Below are positions 23,693 to 34,114 of a DNA stretch of 36,395 bases, piece by piece. The notes beneath the pieces are model-generated. The model was not told the origin of the DNA, ran no database searches, and saw only the letters and a program-made list of their open reading frames with translations. How positions within the stretch are numbered: the stretch's first letter is position 1; each line of letters opens with the position of its first letter. Both the position numbers and the translations under genes were made by a program. This DNA comes from an uncultured Flavobacteriaceae bacterium (GTDB lineage Bacteria; Bacteroidota; Bacteroidia; Flavobacteriales; Flavobacteriaceae): the NCBI GenBank assembly GCA_905182835.1, contig CAJJDI010000027.1, positions 1 through 36,395 of the forward strand, given 5' to 3'.

Positions 23693-25069
23693 ATGCAAAA
23701 TTTTGAATTTATTGCTAAACAAAAATCTTATTTTCTATCTGGAAAAACTAGAAGTATTAGCAAGAGGATTGAAATGTTAGAAAAATTAAATTCATCTATT
23801 GTGAAAAATGAATTAAAAATATTTGAGTCACTTAAAAAAGATTTAAATAAATCTAACTTTGAAAGCTATTTGACAGAGATCGCTATTTTAAAAAGTGAGA
23901 TCAAATTGATTAAAAAAAAACTAAAAAATTGGAGTAAACCAAAAAGAATAAAATCAACTTTAGCAAACTTCCCTTCTAAAGATTATCTATTTCAAGAACC
24001 TTACGGTATTACGCTAATTATCTCTCCTTGGAATTACCCCTTTCAATTAGCATTACTTCCTCTTATTTCATCTATTTCTGCTGGAAATACAGCTGTCTTA
24101 AAACCAAGTGAGCATTCTCCTTATACTTCTAAATTAATTGAGGAAATTATTTTAGATATTTTTCCTGAAGATTATGTGAAAGTTGTATTAGGTGATTCTG
24201 AAATAGCTACAAAATTATTAGAATTAAGATGGGATTATATATTTTTTACGGGCAGTGTAAGAGTCGGAAAGATTGTAGCCAAAGCAGCATCTAAATACTT
24301 AACTCCATTAACCTTAGAATTAGGGGGTAAAAACCCATGTATAGTAGACAAGAATACAGATATTAAACTTACTGCAAAAAGATTAGTTTGGGGTAAGTTT
24401 GTAAATGCTGGCCAAACTTGTATTGCTCCTGATTATCTAATTGTTGAAAAATCTATTAAGAACAATTTAGTTAAACAACTAATTGTAGAAATTGAAAAAG
24501 CATATGGAAAGGATCAAGAGAAATCTGGCGATTACCCAAGAATCATAAATGAACAAAATTTAAAAAATTTAGCTTCGTTAATTGAGAATCAAGAAATTTT
24601 ATATGGCGGACATTACGATTTAAAAAACAAGTATTTTTCTCCTACTATAATTAATAATCCAGAGTTGAATTCTAGCATTATGAGTGAAGAGATTTTCGGC
24701 CCTATTCTTCCAGTATTAGAGTATGAGAAAACAGAAGATATCTTTAAATTAATTTATAGATTTGAAAAACCATTAGCGCTCTATGTTTTTACTAAAAATT
24801 CTAAATTTTCTGATGAAATCATAAATAAGGTTAGTTTTGGAGGTGGTGTTATAAATGATACTATGATTCAATTTGGAAATCATAGACTTCCATTTGGTGG
24901 AGTTGGGGAAAGTGGTATGGGTTCATATCATGGAGAATCTGGCTACAAGCTATTTTCTCATCAGAAACCAATAATTAAAAAAGCAAACTGGTTAGATATA
25001 CCCACTAGGTATGCGCCATACTCTGGTAAATTAAGTAGTCTAAAAAAGCTACTTAGATTTTTAACTTAA
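23693..25069 (+). CDS. Aldehyde dehydrogenase (ALDH3-like)
   Basis: NAD(P)-dependent oxidation of aldehydes to acids. The 458 residues match the short ALDH3-type enzymes. Visible residues are Asn114 (SPWNYP), the cofactor motif FFTGSVRVGK (184-193), general base Glu209 (LELGGKNP) and nucleophile Cys243 (NAGQTCIAPD). The C-terminal EEIFGPILPV and LPFGGVGESGMGSYHG are also class features. The long-chain or fatty-aldehyde preference is a guess from ALDH3 relatives. No membrane anchor is seen at the C-terminus. It is the last gene after panB and the RluA-family gene, and its final 17 bases overlap pxpC on the other strand. Confidence 0.92.
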   Translation: MQNFEFIAKQKSYFLSGKTRSISKRIEMLEKLNSSIVKNELKIFESLKKDLNKSNFESYLTEIAILKSEIKLIKKKLKNWSKPKRIKSTLANFPSKDYLFQEPYGITLIISPWNYPFQLALLPLISSISAGNTAVLKPSEHSPYTSKLIEEIILDIFPEDYVKVVLGDSEIATKLLELRWDYIFFTGSVRVGKIVAKAASKYLTPLTLELGGKNPCIVDKNTDIKLTAKRLVWGKFVNAGQTCIAPDYLIVEKSIKNNLVKQLIVEIEKAYGKDQEKSGDYPRIINEQNLKNLASLIENQEILYGGHYDLKNKYFSPTIINNPELNSSIMSEEIFGPILPVLEYEKTEDIFKLIYRFEKPLALYVFTKNSKFSDEIINKVSFGGGVINDTMIQFGNHRLPFGGVGESGMGSYHGESGYKLFSHQKPIIKKANWLDIPTRYAPYSGKLSSLKKLLRFLT

Positions 25070-25892
25070 AATTTAATTTAGAATTTTTTTTAAGTTGTGA
25101 TACAGAATTTATTGATTTTTCTTCTAATTGTAAAATTCTTGGATATCCACCTGTTGTTTGACAATCCCTCATTAAAATAATTAATGTTCCGTTGGGAGTT
25201 AATTGGACTGTACCAGGAATAACTGGGGAAGTAATAATTGATACTAACTCATTAACAATTAAATCCTTTAATTGTACAGCCATCCTATTGTAACTATTAG
25301 AAATAGAAAACTCGTGAGACATAATATAATTTTGTTGATAAGAGTTTAACATAAAAAATTCAGGACCTTTATAAACACTTAACACATTTCCGAAACTTTT
25401 AATATTTTTCACTAATAGTTCAGAATCGGACAAAGTAACTGATTTATCAAACTTTAAAATATCATTTTTATTCAACCTAACAGCTTTAGTCACGTTTTTA
25501 CACATACTTCTACTGTTATATGCTTTTTCAGTCTTAAAACCACCAGAGATTGCTATATAAGACCTTAACCCGTCAATTAACCTGCCAAAACTTAACACAT
25601 CATTTTTCTTAACAACTAATGAGGTGTTCATTAGAACATTAACATTATTAATAAATGGAGATAAATCAGCACCTGTTATGCATATAATTGAAGAGGTTTT
25701 GAATTCCAATACTGGTCCTATCATTGTTATTTCCATAACAGCATTCTCTACATTATTACCCAATATTTTATTTCCTAAATCAGAAGAGAAGCTATCCATA
25801 GAACCTGAATGTGGGATACCATAAGATTGTAGGCCAACCCTTCCCTTATCTTGAATAGTTGAAAAAAGTCCAGGTTTTAGTATTTCAATCAT
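25053..25892 (-). CDS. pxpC: 5-Oxoprolinase subunit C
   Basis: Part of the PxpABC complex that hydrolyses 5-oxoproline (pyroglutamate) to glutamate with ATP; formerly annotated KipA or biotin-dependent carboxyltransferase-like. With 279 residues it carries GLFSTIQDKGRVGLQSYGIP and SGSMDSFSSDLGN near the N-terminus, SNSYNRMAVQL in the middle, and SPVIPGTVQLTPNGTLIILMRDCQTTGGYPRI toward the C-terminus, all typical. I chose the ATG at 25892, which overlaps pxpB by 8 bases; a TTG at 25910 would extend it. The gene is last in its operon, and its end overlaps the aldehyde dehydrogenase gene by 17 bases. Confidence 0.92.
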   Translation of the reverse strand: MIEILKPGLFSTIQDKGRVGLQSYGIPHSGSMDSFSSDLGNKILGNNVENAVMEITMIGPVLEFKTSSIICITGADLSPFINNVNVLMNTSLVVKKNDVLSFGRLIDGLRSYIAISGGFKTEKAYNSRSMCKNVTKAVRLNKNDILKFDKSVTLSDSELLVKNIKSFGNVLSVYKGPEFFMLNSYQQNYIMSHEFSISNSYNRMAVQLKDLIVNELVSIITSPVIPGTVQLTPNGTLIILMRDCQTTGGYPRILQLEEKSINSVSQLKKNSKLNFKLKI

Positions 25893-26613
25893 TGATTGCC
25901 TCCCATTCAAATTTGAATTTGTTCGACTCTTTTAAAATAACCTGATGCTCTTCTAAGGTAATTGGATAAAATTTAATTAAATCTCCAGGTTGAGCAAAAG
26001 ATATTTCATCAGTAGATGTATTAATGAAATTTACAGGGGAATTTCCAATTATATTCCAACCTCCTGGACTATCAGAAGGATATACACCTGTTTGAGACCC
26101 TCCAATGCCTACAGACCCTTTAGCTACACTCAAGTCAGGTACAGATTTTCTAGGAAAATATAGTTTTTTATTTAAATTACTTAAGTAAAGAAACCCTGGC
26201 AAAAACCCTAAAAAGCATACCATATACTTATTTTCATGATGAAGCTTGATTATTTGATTCCTGCTTAGGTTTAAAGATGTACTAATATTATCTAAATCTT
26301 TAGAAAAAAATTTATCGTAACATACTGGAATTCTCCAAGTTTTACGTTCCACTAAATTAATTTTAATCTTATTTAAATACACCTGCTTCAAGGTCTTTAT
26401 TTCGCTATAGATATTATCTATACTGTATTTGTAAGTAACTAATAATGAAGAGTATGCGTTCCTTACCTCAAGTATTTGTTTAATATTATTATTTATCGCA
26501 TTTTTAAATGAAAGTACATCAAAAATAATATCATTTTCAATAGAATTCTCCCAACTAATTAAGATCGAACTTGAGTTAAACTGAAAATAATTTATAAAGA
26601 AATTCTTATTCAT
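25885..26613 (-). CDS. pxpB: 5-Oxoprolinase subunit B
   Basis: Second subunit of the prokaryotic 5-oxoprolinase (KipI/allophanate hydrolase subunit 1 family). The 242 residues contain the cyclophilin-like core motif FLGFLPGFLYLSNL and PRKSVPDLSVAKGSVGIGG, followed by SPGGWNIIGNSP. In Bacillus the homologue KipI also inhibits the sporulation kinase KinA, which does not apply to a non-sporulating group. The N-terminal 90 residues are divergent. It overlaps pxpA by 4 bases (ATGA) and pxpC by 8 bases, so the three subunits are translationally coupled, as expected for a complex. Confidence 0.92.
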   Translation of the reverse strand: MNKNFFINYFQFNSSSILISWENSIENDIIFDVLSFKNAINNNIKQILEVRNAYSSLLVTYKYSIDNIYSEIKTLKQVYLNKIKINLVERKTWRIPVCYDKFFSKDLDNISTSLNLSRNQIIKLHHENKYMVCFLGFLPGFLYLSNLNKKLYFPRKSVPDLSVAKGSVGIGGSQTGVYPSDSPGGWNIIGNSPVNFINTSTDEISFAQPGDLIKFYPITLEEHQVILKESNKFKFEWEAIND

Positions 26614-27329
26614 TTTGTAAAATAATTTTTATATAGATCTTTCAATAATAAATGTGAATCATCAGTATCTCCGTGCACACAAAAGGTATTCCCTATTGTT
26701 TTAATTAATTTATTTGAAATAGTCTTAATTTTTGAACTACCCATCACCCTATTGTATCTAAGTAACATCTTCGATGGATTTAAAATCATTGAATTAACTT
26801 CATTTCTAGATAACAAAGTGTGGTTATCATTGTAATTTCTGTCTAAAAAAACCTCATAATCTACCTCAACGCCATTTTCTTTAGCTATTTTAGAAACAAC
26901 TGAGCCGTAGGGGGCGTAAATCTTTACATTATCATAACATTTTACTACATCAACATATAAAGCAGCCAAATCAACATCAATAACACATTTATTATACAAA
27001 GCTCCATGGGCTTTAACATGATGAAGTTTACTTATTCCAAATTCACTCATCACCTCTAACAAAGAAGAGATTTGATCATGTAAAGAGTTTTTTAAATCCA
27101 ATAAATTGATAAACATTTCTTTTCTGCCAAAATTAACTCTATCTGGATATGATGGGTGAGCACCAACAAGAACATTATTATCAACAGCTAACTTAACAGT
27201 CTTTCTCATAGATTCCGTATCACCGAAATGACCACCACACGCAACAGAGCAGGAGCGTAAATAAAACATCAAATCACTCTCTCTTAAAACTCCTTCACCA
27301 ACATCAGAATTTATTAGTAACTTTTTCAT
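26610..27329 (-). CDS. pxpA: 5-Oxoprolinase subunit A (LamB/YcsF family)
   Basis: Metal-binding catalytic subunit of the 5-oxoprolinase complex, in the cytosol. The 239 residues show the family pattern: NSDVGEG at the N-terminus, SVACGGHFGDTESMRKTV, LVGAHPSYPDRVNFGRKEM, HHVKAHGALYNK and VHGDTDDS near the C-terminus. The usual S-A-N-I-A-C-G reads S-C-S-V-A-C-G and the usual K-P-H-G reads K-A-H-G, both tolerated variants. It begins 5 bases after the NRAMP-fold transporter gene, and its stop overlaps the pxpB start. Substrate supply probably comes from free pyroglutamate and glutathione or protein turnover. Confidence 0.93.
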   Translation of the reverse strand: MKKLLINSDVGEGVLRESDLMFYLRSCSVACGGHFGDTESMRKTVKLAVDNNVLVGAHPSYPDRVNFGRKEMFINLLDLKNSLHDQISSLLEVMSEFGISKLHHVKAHGALYNKCVIDVDLAALYVDVVKCYDNVKIYAPYGSVVSKIAKENGVEVDYEVFLDRNYNDNHTLLSRNEVNSMILNPSKMLLRYNRVMGSSKIKTISNKLIKTIGNTFCVHGDTDDSHLLLKDLYKNYFTK

Positions 27330-27334
27330 TATAA

Positions 27335-28555
27335 TTAAATTAAACCTATCACAGACAAGATACTTTTTAAGCCCATAAACATTGTTACAAGCACAATGAT
27401 TATTGTAATAAAATTAAACAAATAACCATTAGTATGGTTATTTAAAAGCTGTTTATTGTTCGCCACCCAAAGAAGAAATATCGCAATTACCGGTAGTAGC
27501 ATACCATTTGCTACTTGAGCAAATTTAATAATCTCAATAGATTTATAATTTAAACTTGAAAATAATATTCCTAAAAACAAAACCACAATCCAGATCAATC
27601 TAAATCTTTTTGAATTAGCTTTAGCTTCCCAGCCCAAACAACCACAAGTAACATAAGAAGCAGCCAAAGGGGCTGTTATCGCACTTGTCAATCCTGCAGC
27701 AAACAAACCTAATGATATTATTGTTTTAGAAAAACTTCCAAAAACAGGCTCAATACCTAAAGCTAAATCTGACGCGTTATTAATCTGGAAATCACCAACC
27801 GCAGCAGCTGTAATCACTATAGACATTGAAATTATTCCACCTAAGGCAACAGCTAATAATGTATCTGTTTTTACAAACTGAATATCCGAAGGCTTACTCC
27901 ACTTATCCTTCACTAACGAGGCGTGTAAAAAGATGTTATAAGGAACAACTGTAGTTCCAATCAATCCAATTATGACAAGTAAACTATTTTCTGGTACTTT
28001 TGGCACAAACAAACCTTCAACAAGTGAAAGCAAATTAGGTTTAACAATTATCGCAGAAGTTAAAAAAGCAAAACTCATTAATAAAACCAAAATAATTAAC
28101 ACTTTCTCTACAACTCTTATATTACCAAGAAACAAGATTACAAAAGCTATAAAGCCAATTAATATGGAATAAAAATTTATCTTAAAACCAGCAATAAAAT
28201 ATGTCAATTCTCCAAATACAGAGCTCATTCCCAAAACACCACCACTAATATTACCAGCCTCATAAGCAGTATTTCCTACTAAAATAGCAGAAAGAACAAG
28301 TGCTACAGCTAAATATTTATAAAATGAATTATCAAAACTATTTATCAAGTTCGACGATAATCCTTTCTGGGTTATTAATCCGATTTTTGCAGCAGTAAAT
28401 TGAAGGATCGTTGTCACAATCAATGAAAACAACAACGCCCATAATAGATCTAATCCATATTTAGCACCTGCAATTGAACACATAGTAATTGTACCCGGGC
28501 CAATAAAAGCCGCAGCAATAACGGTCCCTGGACCTATGTTTTTTAAAGAAATCAA
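27335..28555 (-). CDS. NRAMP-fold transporter of the 5-oxoprolinase operon (YcsG-like), without the DPGN metal motif
   Basis: An integral membrane protein of 406 residues with about 11 helices and the overall NRAMP pattern (IGPGTVIAAAFIGPGT, AKYGLDLLWALLFS, ITAPLAASY). True metal transporters have DPGN in helix 1 and M-P-H in helix 6. Here the positions read GPGT (residues 19-22) and V-P-Y (204-206), so the main Mn/Fe ligands are absent. In Bacillus subtilis the NRAMP-like YcsG lies in the ycsF-kipI-kipA (pxp) operon, which suggests this branch carries 5-oxoproline or a related organic substrate rather than a metal; that is inference. The start is a TTG, since a stop lies three codons upstream and the next Met is inside helix 1. 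It begins 2 bases after tilS and ends 5 bases before pxpA. Confidence 0.82.
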   Translation of the reverse strand: MISLKNIGPGTVIAAAFIGPGTITMCSIAGAKYGLDLLWALLFSLIVTTILQFTAAKIGLITQKGLSSNLINSFDNSFYKYLAVALVLSAILVGNTAYEAGNISGGVLGMSSVFGELTYFIAGFKINFYSILIGFIAFVILFLGNIRVVEKVLIILVLLMSFAFLTSAIIVKPNLLSLVEGLFVPKVPENSLLVIIGLIGTTVVPYNIFLHASLVKDKWSKPSDIQFVKTDTLLAVALGGIISMSIVITAAAVGDFQINNASDLALGIEPVFGSFSKTIISLGLFAAGLTSAITAPLAASYVTCGCLGWEAKANSKRFRLIWIVVLFLGILFSSLNYKSIEIIKFAQVANGMLLPVIAIFLLWVANNKQLLNNHTNGYLFNFITIIIVLVTMFMGLKSILSVIGLI

Positions 28556-28557
28556 AA

Positions 28558-29865
28558 TTAATTAAAACTGATTTTTAATATTCTACTGGTTGATTCAGTA
28601 ATTTTATACCTATCATCCATTCTTTGGTTTACAACCCAAATTAATTCATTATTTCCATTTACAAGAACTAAGGATCTGTTTTTATCAATAATTGATAGCT
28701 TTTTATCTTTAAAAAATTTACTTAAAGACTTTTTACCACTCATCCCAAAAGGAATAAATTCCATCCCTTTAGAATAAACCTCAACCCTGAGAGGGTACAC
28801 TAACTTACCCAAATCAACATATACAGATGAAGGATCTACACTTTTTTCAAAATTTAAACACAAATTAAAAAATAATGAGCCATAAATAGTATCAACTTGA
28901 GCAGCGTCACTACGCACATCAATTGAAACAAAACTCATATTAGATATTTCCTCTAAAATTAAAAAATCTCTATCTTTTACTATTCTATGTGTTTTAGAAA
29001 GTATTTGCTTACCAGATTGAGAAGTTAAAATGTTCTCTATATCCGTTAGTTGATTAAAACCGAATTTGTGGAAAAACTCAAACAAACACAGCTTTAAATT
29101 ATCTAATCTCAAAATTTCCTTGATATCATACTTAACCTGATGCCCTTTATCAAATATGATTTTTTTAGAGGTTTCATTAATTTTTTCTTGAATATAAGAT
29201 TTTGAATTTTTTAAATAATTTAAGGATTTATTGAAGTTTTTTAGCAAATCAGGAGCTGATTTCTTGAACTCAGGAATAACATTATTTCTTATTTCGTTTC
29301 GCAAATAATCATTTGACAGATTACTACTGTCTTCTCTCCAGCTAATATTATTTTCTCTAGCGTAATTAACAATTTGATTTTTCGAAAAGCTCAACAAGGG
29401 ACGAATTTTTTTCTTATTCATAATTGGAATTCCCAACAGACCACCTAAACCACTCCCCCTAGATAAATTCATTAGAAAAGTTTCTAATTGATCATCCAAA
29501 TGATGTGCTGTTAAAAGACAATCATAATTAATCAACAAATCATCAAACCACTTATACCGAAGCTCTCTTGCTGCCATCTGCGTAGAGAGACCACTGTTTT
29601 CTTTATAACTAATGGTGTTGAATTTTTTTAAATAAAAATCCACATTTAATAACTTCGCTAAAGCTTCAGCAAATTTAGCATCTTCATCACTCTCTTCACC
29701 TCTTAAAGAAAAGTTACAATGAGCAATAGAAAAATCTAAACCTAAATCATTACACAAATTACACAAGACCACACTGTCTACTCCAGATGAAGTAGCTATT
29801 AAAATCTTATTATTAAACAAAAAAGGAAGCTCATTTATTAAATGAGATTTAAACTCTTCAAACAT
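28558..29865 (-). CDS. tilS: tRNA(Ile)-lysidine synthase
   Basis: Attaches lysine to C34 of the CAU-anticodon tRNA-Ile so that it reads AUA, an important codon in such an AT-rich genome. The 435 residues begin with the N-type ATP pyrophosphatase P-loop, here IATSSGVDSVVL instead of the usual SGG-x-DS, then AHCNFSLRGEESDED, TAHHLDDQLETFLMNLSRGSGLGGL and REDSSNLSNDYLRNEIRN, all TilS hallmarks. The C-terminal TilS domain ends with PFGMSGKKSLSKFFKDKKLS. It lies 57 bases after lpd and 2 bases before the transporter gene of the pxp operon, so read-through or coupling is likely. Confidence 0.95.
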   Translation of the reverse strand: MFEEFKSHLINELPFLFNNKILIATSSGVDSVVLCNLCNDLGLDFSIAHCNFSLRGEESDEDAKFAEALAKLLNVDFYLKKFNTISYKENSGLSTQMAARELRYKWFDDLLINYDCLLTAHHLDDQLETFLMNLSRGSGLGGLLGIPIMNKKKIRPLLSFSKNQIVNYARENNISWREDSSNLSNDYLRNEIRNNVIPEFKKSAPDLLKNFNKSLNYLKNSKSYIQEKINETSKKIIFDKGHQVKYDIKEILRLDNLKLCLFEFFHKFGFNQLTDIENILTSQSGKQILSKTHRIVKDRDFLILEEISNMSFVSIDVRSDAAQVDTIYGSLFFNLCLNFEKSVDPSSVYVDLGKLVYPLRVEVYSKGMEFIPFGMSGKKSLSKFFKDKKLSIIDKNRSLVLVNGNNELIWVVNQRMDDRYKITESTSRILKISFN

Positions 29866-31471: not shown

Positions 31472-32671
31472 ATGAAAAACAAACCAGCTAACAAAATTCA
31501 AGACTTGCAGTATTTTGGTGAATTTGGTGGAGTGAATCCATCAATTTCAGACTCTTCAACATATACTTTTTTATCCGCAAAATCCATGTCGGATACTTTT
31601 GAAGGAAATACTGAGGGCTGCTACCTTTACTCTAGACACACAAATCCTAGTAATTTATATCTTGGTGAAGCTTTAGCAGCTATGGAAAATACAGAATCTG
31701 CTACTGTTTTTGGCTCTGGAATGGGAGCTATCACTTCTACCTTATTGCAATTATGTAAATCTGGCGATCATGTTGTTTCAAGTAGAACTGTTTATGGAGG
31801 TACCTATGCATTTTTAAAAAACTTTGCCAATCAGCTAAACATTAGCACTAGTTTTGTTGACATAACAGACTTGGAGGCTATAAAAAATAGTATAACGAAT
31901 GACACTAAGGTTATATACTGTGAAGCTGTAAGTAATCCTTTATTAGAAATAGCAGACATTTTAAAGATTGCCGAAATTGCCAAAGAGACAGGCGTTAAGC
32001 TTGTAATAGACAACACCTTCTCTCCTCTTTCAATAGTGCCAGCAAATTTAGGTGCAGATATCGTAATTCACAGTATCACTAAGTTTATAAACGGTACAAG
32101 TGATACTATTGCAGGGGTGGTTTGTGGAAGTCAGGATTTTATAAATGAACTTAGAGACGTAAATGATGGCGCGTCTATGCTACTTGGATCTACACTAGAT
32201 AGTTTAAGGGCAGCATCTGTACTTAAGAACCTTAGGACTCTACATATAAGAATAAAAAAACATAGTGAAAATGCAATGTATTTAGCAGGGATGTTTGAAA
32301 AAGATGGTATTAGAACAGTTTACCCAGGGTTAAAAAGTCACCCTTCACATAATTTATACAATTCATTTATAGATCACGAATACGGCTATGGAGGGATTTT
32401 AACTATTGATGCTGGTAAGCTTGAAACAGCTAACAAATTCATGGAGCTAATGCAAGAAAACAATGTAGGTTACCTAGCAGTTAGTTTAGGATTTTACAAA
32501 ACACTATTTAGCACTCCGGGATCATCAACTTCATCAGAAATTCCAGAAGAAGAACAAAAAGAAATGGGTCTTAACGAGGGTTTAATCAGATTTTCAATTG
32601 GACTTGACAATGATATCAAAAGAACTTATCAAGTCATAAAAGAGTGCATGAAAAAAGTTAATTTAATATAG
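31472..32671 (+). CDS. Cys/Met-metabolism PLP-dependent enzyme, subfamily uncertain
   Basis: A fold-type I enzyme of the cystathionine gamma-synthase/lyase and methionine gamma-lyase family, 399 residues. Landmarks are YSRHTNPS with Tyr53 and Arg55 for the neighbouring subunit's PLP phosphate, VFGSGMGAI, Tyr108 stacking on PLP (VYGGTY), Asp180 (DNTFSPL) and Schiff-base Lys204 (SITKFING). Methionine gamma-lyases normally have Cys after Y-G; here it is Gly110. The usual M-T-H-S-x-x-P near the C-terminus reads S-T-S-S-E-I-P. The N-terminal region also lacks the common T-x-A-I-H-x-G start. So it belongs to the family, but beta/gamma-lyase or synthase activity cannot be chosen from sequence. It is 3 bases ahead of the NhaC-family gene. 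Confidence 0.85.
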   Translation: MKNKPANKIQDLQYFGEFGGVNPSISDSSTYTFLSAKSMSDTFEGNTEGCYLYSRHTNPSNLYLGEALAAMENTESATVFGSGMGAITSTLLQLCKSGDHVVSSRTVYGGTYAFLKNFANQLNISTSFVDITDLEAIKNSITNDTKVIYCEAVSNPLLEIADILKIAEIAKETGVKLVIDNTFSPLSIVPANLGADIVIHSITKFINGTSDTIAGVVCGSQDFINELRDVNDGASMLLGSTLDSLRAASVLKNLRTLHIRIKKHSENAMYLAGMFEKDGIRTVYPGLKSHPSHNLYNSFIDHEYGYGGILTIDAGKLETANKFMELMQENNVGYLAVSLGFYKTLFSTPGSSTSSEIPEEEQKEMGLNEGLIRFSIGLDNDIKRTYQVIKECMKKVNLI

Positions 32672-32674
32672 AAG

Positions 32675-34114
32675 ATGAATAGCCCTAAAGAAATTAGCTT
32701 AAGTACATCTTTACTTCCGATCGTTTTACTTATTTCAATGTTAACTTATAATATATTAGTATTTGAAGATAAAGAATGGTTAGGTGAGTACACTTATCAA
32801 TTAATACTTTTAATCACCTCTTCTATAGTGTCACTAATTGGTTTTGTAAACAAAGTATCTTTGAAAACAATAATCACAAAAATTTATTTAAGCATAAAAA
32901 GCATAGCCACTCCAATTATTATATTGTTATTAGTTGGCGCTTTAGCAGGTACATGGAAAGTTAGTGGAGTGATTCCGGCCATGGTATACTATGGTCTACA
33001 ACTAATTGACCCATCTATATTTTTACCACTTTCACTTATAGTGTCATCAATTGTATCTCTATCTACAGGCAGTTCATACACCACTTCGGCAACAGTTGGA
33101 ATAGCTTTAGTTGCAGTCGGGACAGCTTTTCAAATACCACCAGGCATGACCGCTGGAGCCGTGATATCAGGAGCTTATTTTGGAGATAAATTATCTCCAC
33201 TCAGTGACACTACAAACTTAGCACCTGCCATGGCAGGCACTGACTTATATACTCATATAAAATACATGACCTATACAACTGTACCTACTATTTTAATAAC
33301 ACTTATAGTATTTACACTCATTAGTCTTAACATCACAACAGAATTTTCTGGAAACCTAGATAGTATTACAAGTCTTACAGACACGCTTGTTAATGATTTT
33401 TATATTTCACCTATTTTATTTGCGGTCCCTATTAGTGTAATCATACTAGCTGCATTGAAAGTTAAACCCGTAATAGCCTTAAGTATTGGAATAAGTTTAG
33501 CAATTGTTTTTACTGTTATTTTCCAATCTAATATTATTGACTTGCTATCTCCAGGTAGCTACTCAAGTATTTTTGATTCTGTTTTTTTAGACACAGAAAT
33601 TCCAACTGACAATGAAAGAATTTCAAAACTGTATAATTCTGGAGGAATGACAGGTATGATCTGGACAATAAACCTGACAATTTGCGCTATGATATTTGGT
33701 GGTGCAATGGATGCAATTGGAGCTTTAACAAAGATTACTAACAAGCTACTGTCACTTGCTAATTCTACTTTTGGATTAGTAGCTAGTACGGTAGTTAGTT
33801 GTTTAGGAATAAATATAGCCGCTTCTGATCAGTACCTTGCAATTGTAATCCCAGGAAAAATGTTCAAAAATGCATATGAAGAATATGATTTAGCGCCAGA
33901 GAACTTAAGTAGAACTCTAGAAGATTCAGGGACGGTTACATCTGCTTTAATCCCATGGAACACATGTGGGGCATATCATTACGGAGTGCTTGGAGTGAGT
34001 GTTGCTGATTATTTTATTTATGCGGTATTTAATTGGCTTAGTCCTATTATGACTTTGATATATGCAGGTATAGGAATTAAAATTAGATTAATAACCAGCT
34101 CAAGTAAAAAATAA
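32675..34114 (+). CDS. NhaC-family Na+/H+ antiporter or MetT-like carrier
   Basis: A polytopic membrane protein of 479 residues with about 11-12 helices. The NhaC-family signature GAYFGDKLSPLSDTTNLAPAMAGTDLYTHIKYM is clear at about 167-199, with SLSTGSSYTTSATVGIAL before it and NIAASDQYLAIVIPGKMF near 385. NhaC members include Na+/H+ antiporters, the malate/lactate exchanger MleN and the predicted methionine carrier MetT. Because its start lies 3 bases after the Cys/Met-type PLP enzyme gene, uptake of a sulfur amino acid for that enzyme is a reasonable hypothesis, but not provable by sequence. Full length, no disruption. Confidence 0.88.
   Translation: MNSPKEISLSTSLLPIVLLISMLTYNILVFEDKEWLGEYTYQLILLITSSIVSLIGFVNKVSLKTIITKIYLSIKSIATPIIILLLVGALAGTWKVSGVIPAMVYYGLQLIDPSIFLPLSLIVSSIVSLSTGSSYTTSATVGIALVAVGTAFQIPPGMTAGAVISGAYFGDKLSPLSDTTNLAPAMAGTDLYTHIKYMTYTTVPTILITLIVFTLISLNITTEFSGNLDSITSLTDTLVNDFYISPILFAVPISVIILAALKVKPVIALSIGISLAIVFTVIFQSNIIDLLSPGSYSSIFDSVFLDTEIPTDNERISKLYNSGGMTGMIWTINLTICAMIFGGAMDAIGALTKITNKLLSLANSTFGLVASTVVSCLGINIAASDQYLAIVIPGKMFKNAYEEYDLAPENLSRTLEDSGTVTSALIPWNTCGAYHYGVLGVSVADYFIYAVFNWLSPIMTLIYAGIGIKIRLITSSSKK

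Follow-up and report, generated by a model that had tools for sequence, protein, structure and literature searches.

A gene of the NRAMP family (PF01566) that directly precedes the genes of a 5-oxoprolinase raises the question of what its product carries: a metal, or a compound related to the neighbouring enzyme. The gene was found in an uncultured Flavobacteriaceae bacterium, on a stretch of 36,395 nucleotides analysed at its full length (the window), at 27335..28555 of the minus strand. It encodes 406 amino acids and, by the reading of open frames, starts with TTG 2 bases past the tilS stop. The PF01566 match reaches 281 bits (E 1.5e-83) at a gathering cut-off of 29.8. The best named matches listed, at 76-77% identity, come from marine Flavobacteriaceae or Bacteroidetes genomes; by sequence, the nearest protein of solved structure is EleNRMT (E 1.6e-33). 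As originally predicted, the gene lies between tilS and pxpA-pxpB-pxpC, all on the minus strand and identified by Pfam matches; the block is tight, in the order tilS-NRAMP-pxpA-pxpB-pxpC, and the frames from the transporter through pxpC overlap or nearly overlap. The upstream tilS (28558..29865; TIGR02432, 175 bits, above the cut-off) probably plays no part in the transporter function. The downstream genes encode the 5-oxoprolinase subunits A (pxpA, LamB/YcsF, 26610..27329; PF03746, E 9.4e-63), B (pxpB, 25885..26613; PF02682, E 5.6e-57) and C (pxpC, 25053..25910; PF02626, E 1.1e-61). All three pass their Pfam cut-offs; among the subunit-specific NCBIfam models, TIGR00370 (PxpB) alone clears its own cut-off, with 145.6 bits at 145.55, and NF045499 (PxpC), at 158 bits, falls short of its cut-off of 500. 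Elsewhere in the window (31472-34114), a methionine gamma-lyase-like gene adjoins an NhaC/ArcD-like antiporter. No DPGN Nramp was found in the window's genome, which is 82% complete; its sole other PF01566 protein (L002, G000:C44:22147-23175) has GVSHL in helix 1 and is without metal ligands.

The AlphaFold2 model of the window protein, built from 49 window and contig sequences, has a pLDDT of 84.4 and a pTM of 0.85. Helix 1 is broken at residues 18-19 and helix 6 at residues 203-204, as expected of a LeuT-fold carrier. DraNramp is among the best fold matches (Z 48, rmsd 2.4, 376 aligned), for EleNRMT (7qia) Z is 46, and for 9a52, an integrative model of YcsG, it is 41 (rmsd 3.1, 19% identity); amino-acid carriers rank after the Nramp-type folds, with Z 25-30. 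The fold alone indicates no function. Reading of the sequence and alignment to DPGN rows confirmed the two motifs pointed out in the original prediction, both at helix breaks of the model: GPGT in TM1 (residues 19-22; 28490..28501, minus strand), where canonical Nramps have DPGN, and VPY in TM6 (residues 204-206; 27938..27946, minus strand), where they have MPH. In the alignment column table, E99-A-G-N102 of TM3 (28250..28261, minus strand) stands at the Asp and Glu columns of the DPGN rows. All canonical ligand columns are altered: Asp to G19, Asn to T22, Met to V204, His to Y206 and the TM3 Glu to N102, with no acidic residue at this last column. G19, T22, N102, V204 and Y206 are invariant across the GPGT rows of the branch alignment, and G19, N102 and Y206 are common to the YcsG-type rows too; P205 varies, being Gly in 8 haloarchaeal rows and Thr or Ala in 6 rows of one clade. 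The TM3 Asp column reads E99 in the GPGT rows, with Gln in a minority, and this one acidic side chain kept in the site counts against 5-oxoproline import. We take the TM3 Asp and Glu columns to be D131 and E134 of DraNramp, whose ligand residues are presumably numbered D56, N59, M230, H232, D131 and E134. This numbering is found in part in PMC12873925, according to which a change of the TM1 Asp in BfraNramp abolished transport.

Because the metal-holding residues are missing and 5-oxoproline enzymes are encoded beside it, the window protein is most likely, and in our judgement with good probability, a secondary carrier with the LeuT fold, from the NRAMP superfamily, predicted to import 5-oxoproline (pyroglutamate) and not a metal. 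The alternative, an importer of a divalent metal (Mn2+) serving PxpABC or related enzymes, as claimed for YcsG (MntG) and MumT, would agree with the Pfam and NCBIfam label of Nramp metal transporter and with a fold model closest to metal Nramps. It is very unlikely in view of the change of every ligand column, the loss of transport in BfraNramp, and partner enzymes of 5-oxoprolinase type from two unrelated families, described below.

The branch to which the protein belongs was followed through 143 aligned rows; GPGT is present in 142 of them and GPGS in one, and as one row (L001) repeats the window, the set holds 142 distinct loci. In PMC10606218, PF01566 is divided into Slc11 and two outgroups, 'orphan' and NRMT, and the residues named for the orphans are GYGNGG in helix 3 and V-Y in helix 6. 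The window branch carries the corresponding G94, Y98, G101, N102, G105 and G109, together with V204 and Y206. Judged by residue order against the available text of that paper, the branch would correspond to the 'orphan outgroup' of the Slc11 family (Cellier). The original prediction also suggested that the branch may have given up metals. In the rooted tree of PMC12873925, as far as that source was available, Nramp-related proteins are paraphyletic and fall outside the canonical Nramps, so the window branch may never have carried metals. The window protein represents a lineage of its own within a kind that was recognised only recently.

Among the best 80 of at least 597 named matching stretches, nearly all flavobacterial or Bacteroidetes by name, pxpA is directly downstream in 74 and the full pxpABC in 71. 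Four of the 80 (L146, L150, L160, L165) have no adjoining enzyme, and in two (L164, L167) a HyuA-HyuB fusion of 1254-1260 amino acids stands in place of pxpA. On haloarchaeal plasmids, HyuA is directly downstream in 9 of the 10 loci read, of 23 close haloarchaeal records listed; L186 is without it, and L185 is cut by the record end. The motif is present without pxp or Hyu neighbours in Pseudoalteromonas (L096) and Qipengyuania (L097). Over all 143 rows, a biased set, 104 adjoin pxp genes, 16 HyuA/HyuB or the fusion, three DUF2891 only (one of these also with gamma-glutamyltransferase) and 20 none. At L061 (6384-8126) a gamma-glutamyltransferase gene directly follows the transporter, and pxpABC is located about 259 kb away on the same contig. 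One clade, of six rows, has no adjoining enzyme, and in three of the six the transporter gene directly follows 2-oxoacid:ferredoxin oxidoreductase-like genes, so that some branch members may carry something else. The three (L197, L198, L203; GPGTVLTCA with VTYN or VAYN), whose oxidoreductase-like neighbours were named by eye, have HyuB elsewhere in their genomes; this sub-branch possibly carries another substrate. The search for the branch gave no viral contigs. A flavobacterial-type operon was also seen on a contig labelled Alcanivoracaceae (L162), which is probably mis-binned.

The co-occurrence of the branch with lactam-opening enzymes was counted in 247 genomes, all of the window's phylum. 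The branch alignment search returned 60 genomes at E <=1e-60, of which the 54 scoring >=240 bits were counted as branch; GPGT was read at the loci of 50 of these, and G008, G050, G058 and G119 were counted by score. The six genomes below 216 bits were counted out, three (G078, G097, G160) read as NRMT-like and three (G110, G036, G106) by score, the latter with strong Pfam Nramp matches (E near 1e-119). PxpA was scored by PF03746 and HyuB by PF02538; a match below the cut-off (G106) and a second fragment (G186) do not enter the PxpA count. The 54 branch genomes comprise 39 with PxpA and 15 with HyuB, none with both and none with neither, whereas only 32 of the 193 non-branch genomes have either enzyme (12 PxpA, 20 HyuB). 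In the whole sample PxpA is present in 51 genomes, HyuB in 35, and both together in none. The association of branch and enzyme has a Fisher p of 3e-32 by genome, with kinship ignored; by genus, which is the extent of the correction for descent, an enzyme is present in 27/27 genera with the branch versus 23/95 others (p 1.2e-13). Genera were counted by hand from listings, and unlisted genomes were taken as being without the genes. The originally proposed tie between a branch without metal ligands and 5-oxoproline metabolism is borne out by a co-occurrence far beyond chance.

Adjacency was defined as pxpA within less than 2.5 kb or HyuB within less than 7 kb. With these limits, 29 of the 54 branch genomes have the transporter beside pxpA, 10 beside HyuB and 15 beside neither; in these 15, which count against 5-oxoproline import, pxpA (10) or HyuB (5) lies elsewhere. 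The refuting case named at the outset, GPGT relatives without a general link to pxp genes, did not arise once the test is widened to the second enzyme: 29 of the 54 adjoin pxpA, a further 10 adjoin HyuB, and every one of the 54 genomes holds PxpA or HyuB. No pxp gene was found near DPGN genes at 32 loci, most with a flank of only about 1 kb, for which reason the reverse control was relied on. Among the 51 pxpA loci, 29 have a GPGT neighbour, six a YcsG-type neighbour (GPGFLTQ/GGTVGGYI), 16 no NRAMP protein and none a DPGN protein; G047, G128, G143, G162, G182 and G228 have pxpA with neither a GPGT nor a YcsG-type protein beside it. A chance neighbourhood is ruled out by this control and by the co-occurrence counts.

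That one carrier branch goes with either of two 5-oxoprolinase-type enzymes that are not homologous speaks for 5-oxoproline, or a five-ring lactam close to it, as the substrate rather than a metal. Other members of the HyuAB family are N-methylhydantoinase, caprolactamase and carboxylases. This breadth, together with the L167 fusion, whose best solved relative is named N-methylhydantoinase with 5-oxoprolinase second, means that the common substrate could be another lactam. A carrier for five-ring lactams or imides akin to 5-oxoproline (hydantoin, N-methylhydantoin, D-5-oxoproline), whether for one of them or for several, would also be in keeping with the hydantoinases of the HyuAB family and with a racemase-like gene (Amdase/Asp_Glu_race) that follows HyuB in some haloarchaea. 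It is nevertheless rather unlikely: the haloarchaeal stretches that were read show no annotated carbamoylase, and PxpABC, the partner in the window lineage, is known for 5-oxoproline (PMC13274462).

For 5-oxoproline import, the preferred reading, the following course may be proposed. The substrate site would lie where helices 1 and 6 are unwound in the middle, at GPGT and VPYN respectively; in it the backbone amides of GPGT together with T22 may hold the carboxylate, and Y206/N207 with Y98, E99 and N102 of TM3 may hold the lactam ring. These putative roles are drawn from the fold, from conservation and from the example of amino-acid carriers in the APC superfamily. Imported 5-oxoproline would be phosphorylated by PxpBC with ATP, and PxpA would open the phosphorylated ring to give glutamate for carbon and nitrogen metabolism. 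Phosphorylation by PxpBC and opening by PxpA are likewise assumed in PMC13274462. Where a relative has no PxpABC, ring opening would fall to the unrelated HyuA/HyuB (hydantoinase/oxoprolinase). Substrate, direction and site residues of the window carrier are what we infer; the basis is formed by motifs, fold model, gene block, co-occurrence and two alternative enzymes, with PxpT as a published distant relative. The altered ligands, co-occurrence, adjacency, DUF2891, the gamma-glutamyltransferase of L061, the reported need for PxpT/YcsG, which have the same fold, and the better match of a YcsG-type protein to this branch than to metal Nramps or NRMT all count for import of 5-oxoproline. Direction is not revealed by the sequence, and 5-oxoproline arises spontaneously in every cell (PMC13274462), as would suit an exporter or balancer of 5-oxoproline formed inside the cell, a damage-control valve. 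Such a role is highly improbable, as growth on external 5-oxoproline requires PxpT.

A further partner, DUF2891, is encoded directly upstream of the transporter in 55/117 rows. Its model matches Cj0554 of C. jejuni (PDB 8ieu, 8iev; Z 39.8, 34-35% identity), the product of the third gene of the cj0552-4 operon, the loss of which abolished 5-oxoproline use (PMC12795558). DUF2891 is possibly an enzyme in 5-oxoproline use. The protein, a lipoprotein (L113:6869-7987 and similar), has a helical barrel with epimerases and unsaturated glucuronyl hydrolases as other near folds. DUF2891 is present in 21/247 genomes, nine with the branch (seven adjacent) and 12 without, which excludes it as a strict branch marker; these 12 genomes, and its absence from the window's genome (82% complete), count against the argument from DUF2891.

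The idea of 5-oxoproline import through an NRAMP fold, presented as new in the original prediction, has already been published for PxpT/YcsG: C. glutamicum requires pxpT to grow on 5-oxoproline, a plasmid complements the mutant, and PxpT (Cg1142) is 50% identical to YcsG, the authors leaving metal transport possible (PMC13274462). The same paper, in reference to Niehaus 2017, states that deletion of ycsG blocks 5-oxoproline use in B. subtilis, a result for which polarity was not ruled out according to PMC10448178. In the latter, overexpression of YcsG raised cellular Mn, MntR bound the promoter of the ycsG operon, and the protein was named MntG, an Mn importer. MumT of A. baumannii, from the operon mumTLUHC, is less than 25% identical to reported NRAMPs, and mumT mutant cells contain less Mn (PMC5050338). 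These Mn effects (PMC10448178, PMC5050338) favour the metal importer and count against 5-oxoproline import, though they were obtained in whole cells with another lineage, which is also without the ligands.

This second pxp-linked type (GPGFLTQ/GGTVGGYI) was also found in records of A. baumannii, Lactiplantibacillus, Deinococcus and Bacillus badius. The A. baumannii locus (L093) holds an NRAMP-type gene, pxpA and a single ORF matching both pxpB and pxpC. In B. badius (L210) the order is pxpA - NRAMP - putative hydro-lyase, the last sharing 55% identity with the D-glutamate cyclase homologue of L. plantarum. Such a homologue is held by the YcsG-type operons L098 (PF07286) and L210; D-glutamate cyclase makes 5-oxo-D-proline. 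The B. subtilis order is presumably pxpA-ycsG-ycsI. It is given in part in PMC10448178. Because the B. badius order matches it, the GPGFLTQ type was taken as the YcsG lineage; PxpT was placed there by its published identity to YcsG, and YcsG by the L210 gene order.

The window protein had been likened to YcsG, an assignment ruled out by an identity of 23.6% over 407 residues with the B. badius protein and by the different motifs. The YcsG-type protein scores 75 bits against the GPGT branch, 31 against metal Nramps and 37 against NRMT. In trees with the motif columns removed, the GPGT rows (59) fall on one side with support of 89/91, the YcsG rows with 100/100 and the metal rows with 66/53, and the free tree places the YcsG lineage elsewhere than as sister to the pxp-linked GPGT clade. 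The YcsG rows also form a separate group, at 100/100, in a tree that takes in the long row L002. Forcing this sister relation in an AU test with 38 rows, those nested in the clade included, costs 0.02 log units (p 0.498), so one origin of the pxp tie is possible, and an independent, convergent origin of the two lineages is not claimed.

The new observation is that the branch tracks lactam-opening enzymes of two unrelated families, PxpA or HyuB; a search of titles and abstract openings found no report linking it to PxpABC or HyuAB. The original prediction was right in direction and not new in kind, and the second unrelated enzyme family strengthens it: one carrier branch with two unrelated enzymes, probably for the same step, is a strong handle for substrate assignment. 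In a wider sense, the orphan outgroup, bacterial and archaeal, may consist of 5-oxoproline or lactam carriers; together with the YcsG lineage this would mean that metal transporters arose from organic-solute carriers, and that YcsG/MntG and MumT move 5-oxoproline, their Mn effects being indirect. To this wider proposal we give an even chance. If true, it would provide a substrate for a whole PF01566 branch now called 'divalent metal transporter', correct the annotation in many genomes, bear on the origin of the Nramp metal site in proteins of LeuT fold, and open the dispute over YcsG/MntG and MumT to experimental test.

Among the known systems, the DUF969/DUF979 transporter of C. jejuni (cj0552-3) shares the proposed substrate and the DUF2891 partner with the window branch (PMC12795558), but is unrelated by name and Pfam family; DUF979, as an alternative carrier in the phylum, is present in none of the 247 genomes. 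DraNramp and canonical MntH have a similar fold, and differ in all ligand columns. EleNRMT, an Mg2+ transporter, is the nearest solved sequence; however, NRMT-like rows carry NDAGG and APW in contrast to GPGT and VPY, and no pxp linkage was seen in the four NRMT-like loci read. The YcsG-type lineage (PxpT of C. glutamicum, YcsG of B. subtilis, PxpG of C. difficile, MumT of A. baumannii) agrees with the window protein in the PF01566 fold, in pxpABC neighbours and in the lack of DPGN or MPH, with Gly, Tyr and Asn in the columns of the TM1 Asp, the TM6 His and the TM3 Glu. It differs in TM1 (GPGFLTQ) and TM6 (GGTVGGYI; ten rows read), in place of which the window protein has GPGT and VPYN, and at about 24% identity the latter lies outside a lineage delimited by these motifs and more than 40% identity, while sharing its pxpABC gene block. 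Sequence search gave no solved structure of a YcsG-type protein, and 9a52 was found by fold. The 'orphan outgroup' (Cellier), to which the available text of PMC10606218 gives no function, has the same G, Y, G, N, G and G of TM3 and V and Y of TM6 as the window branch.
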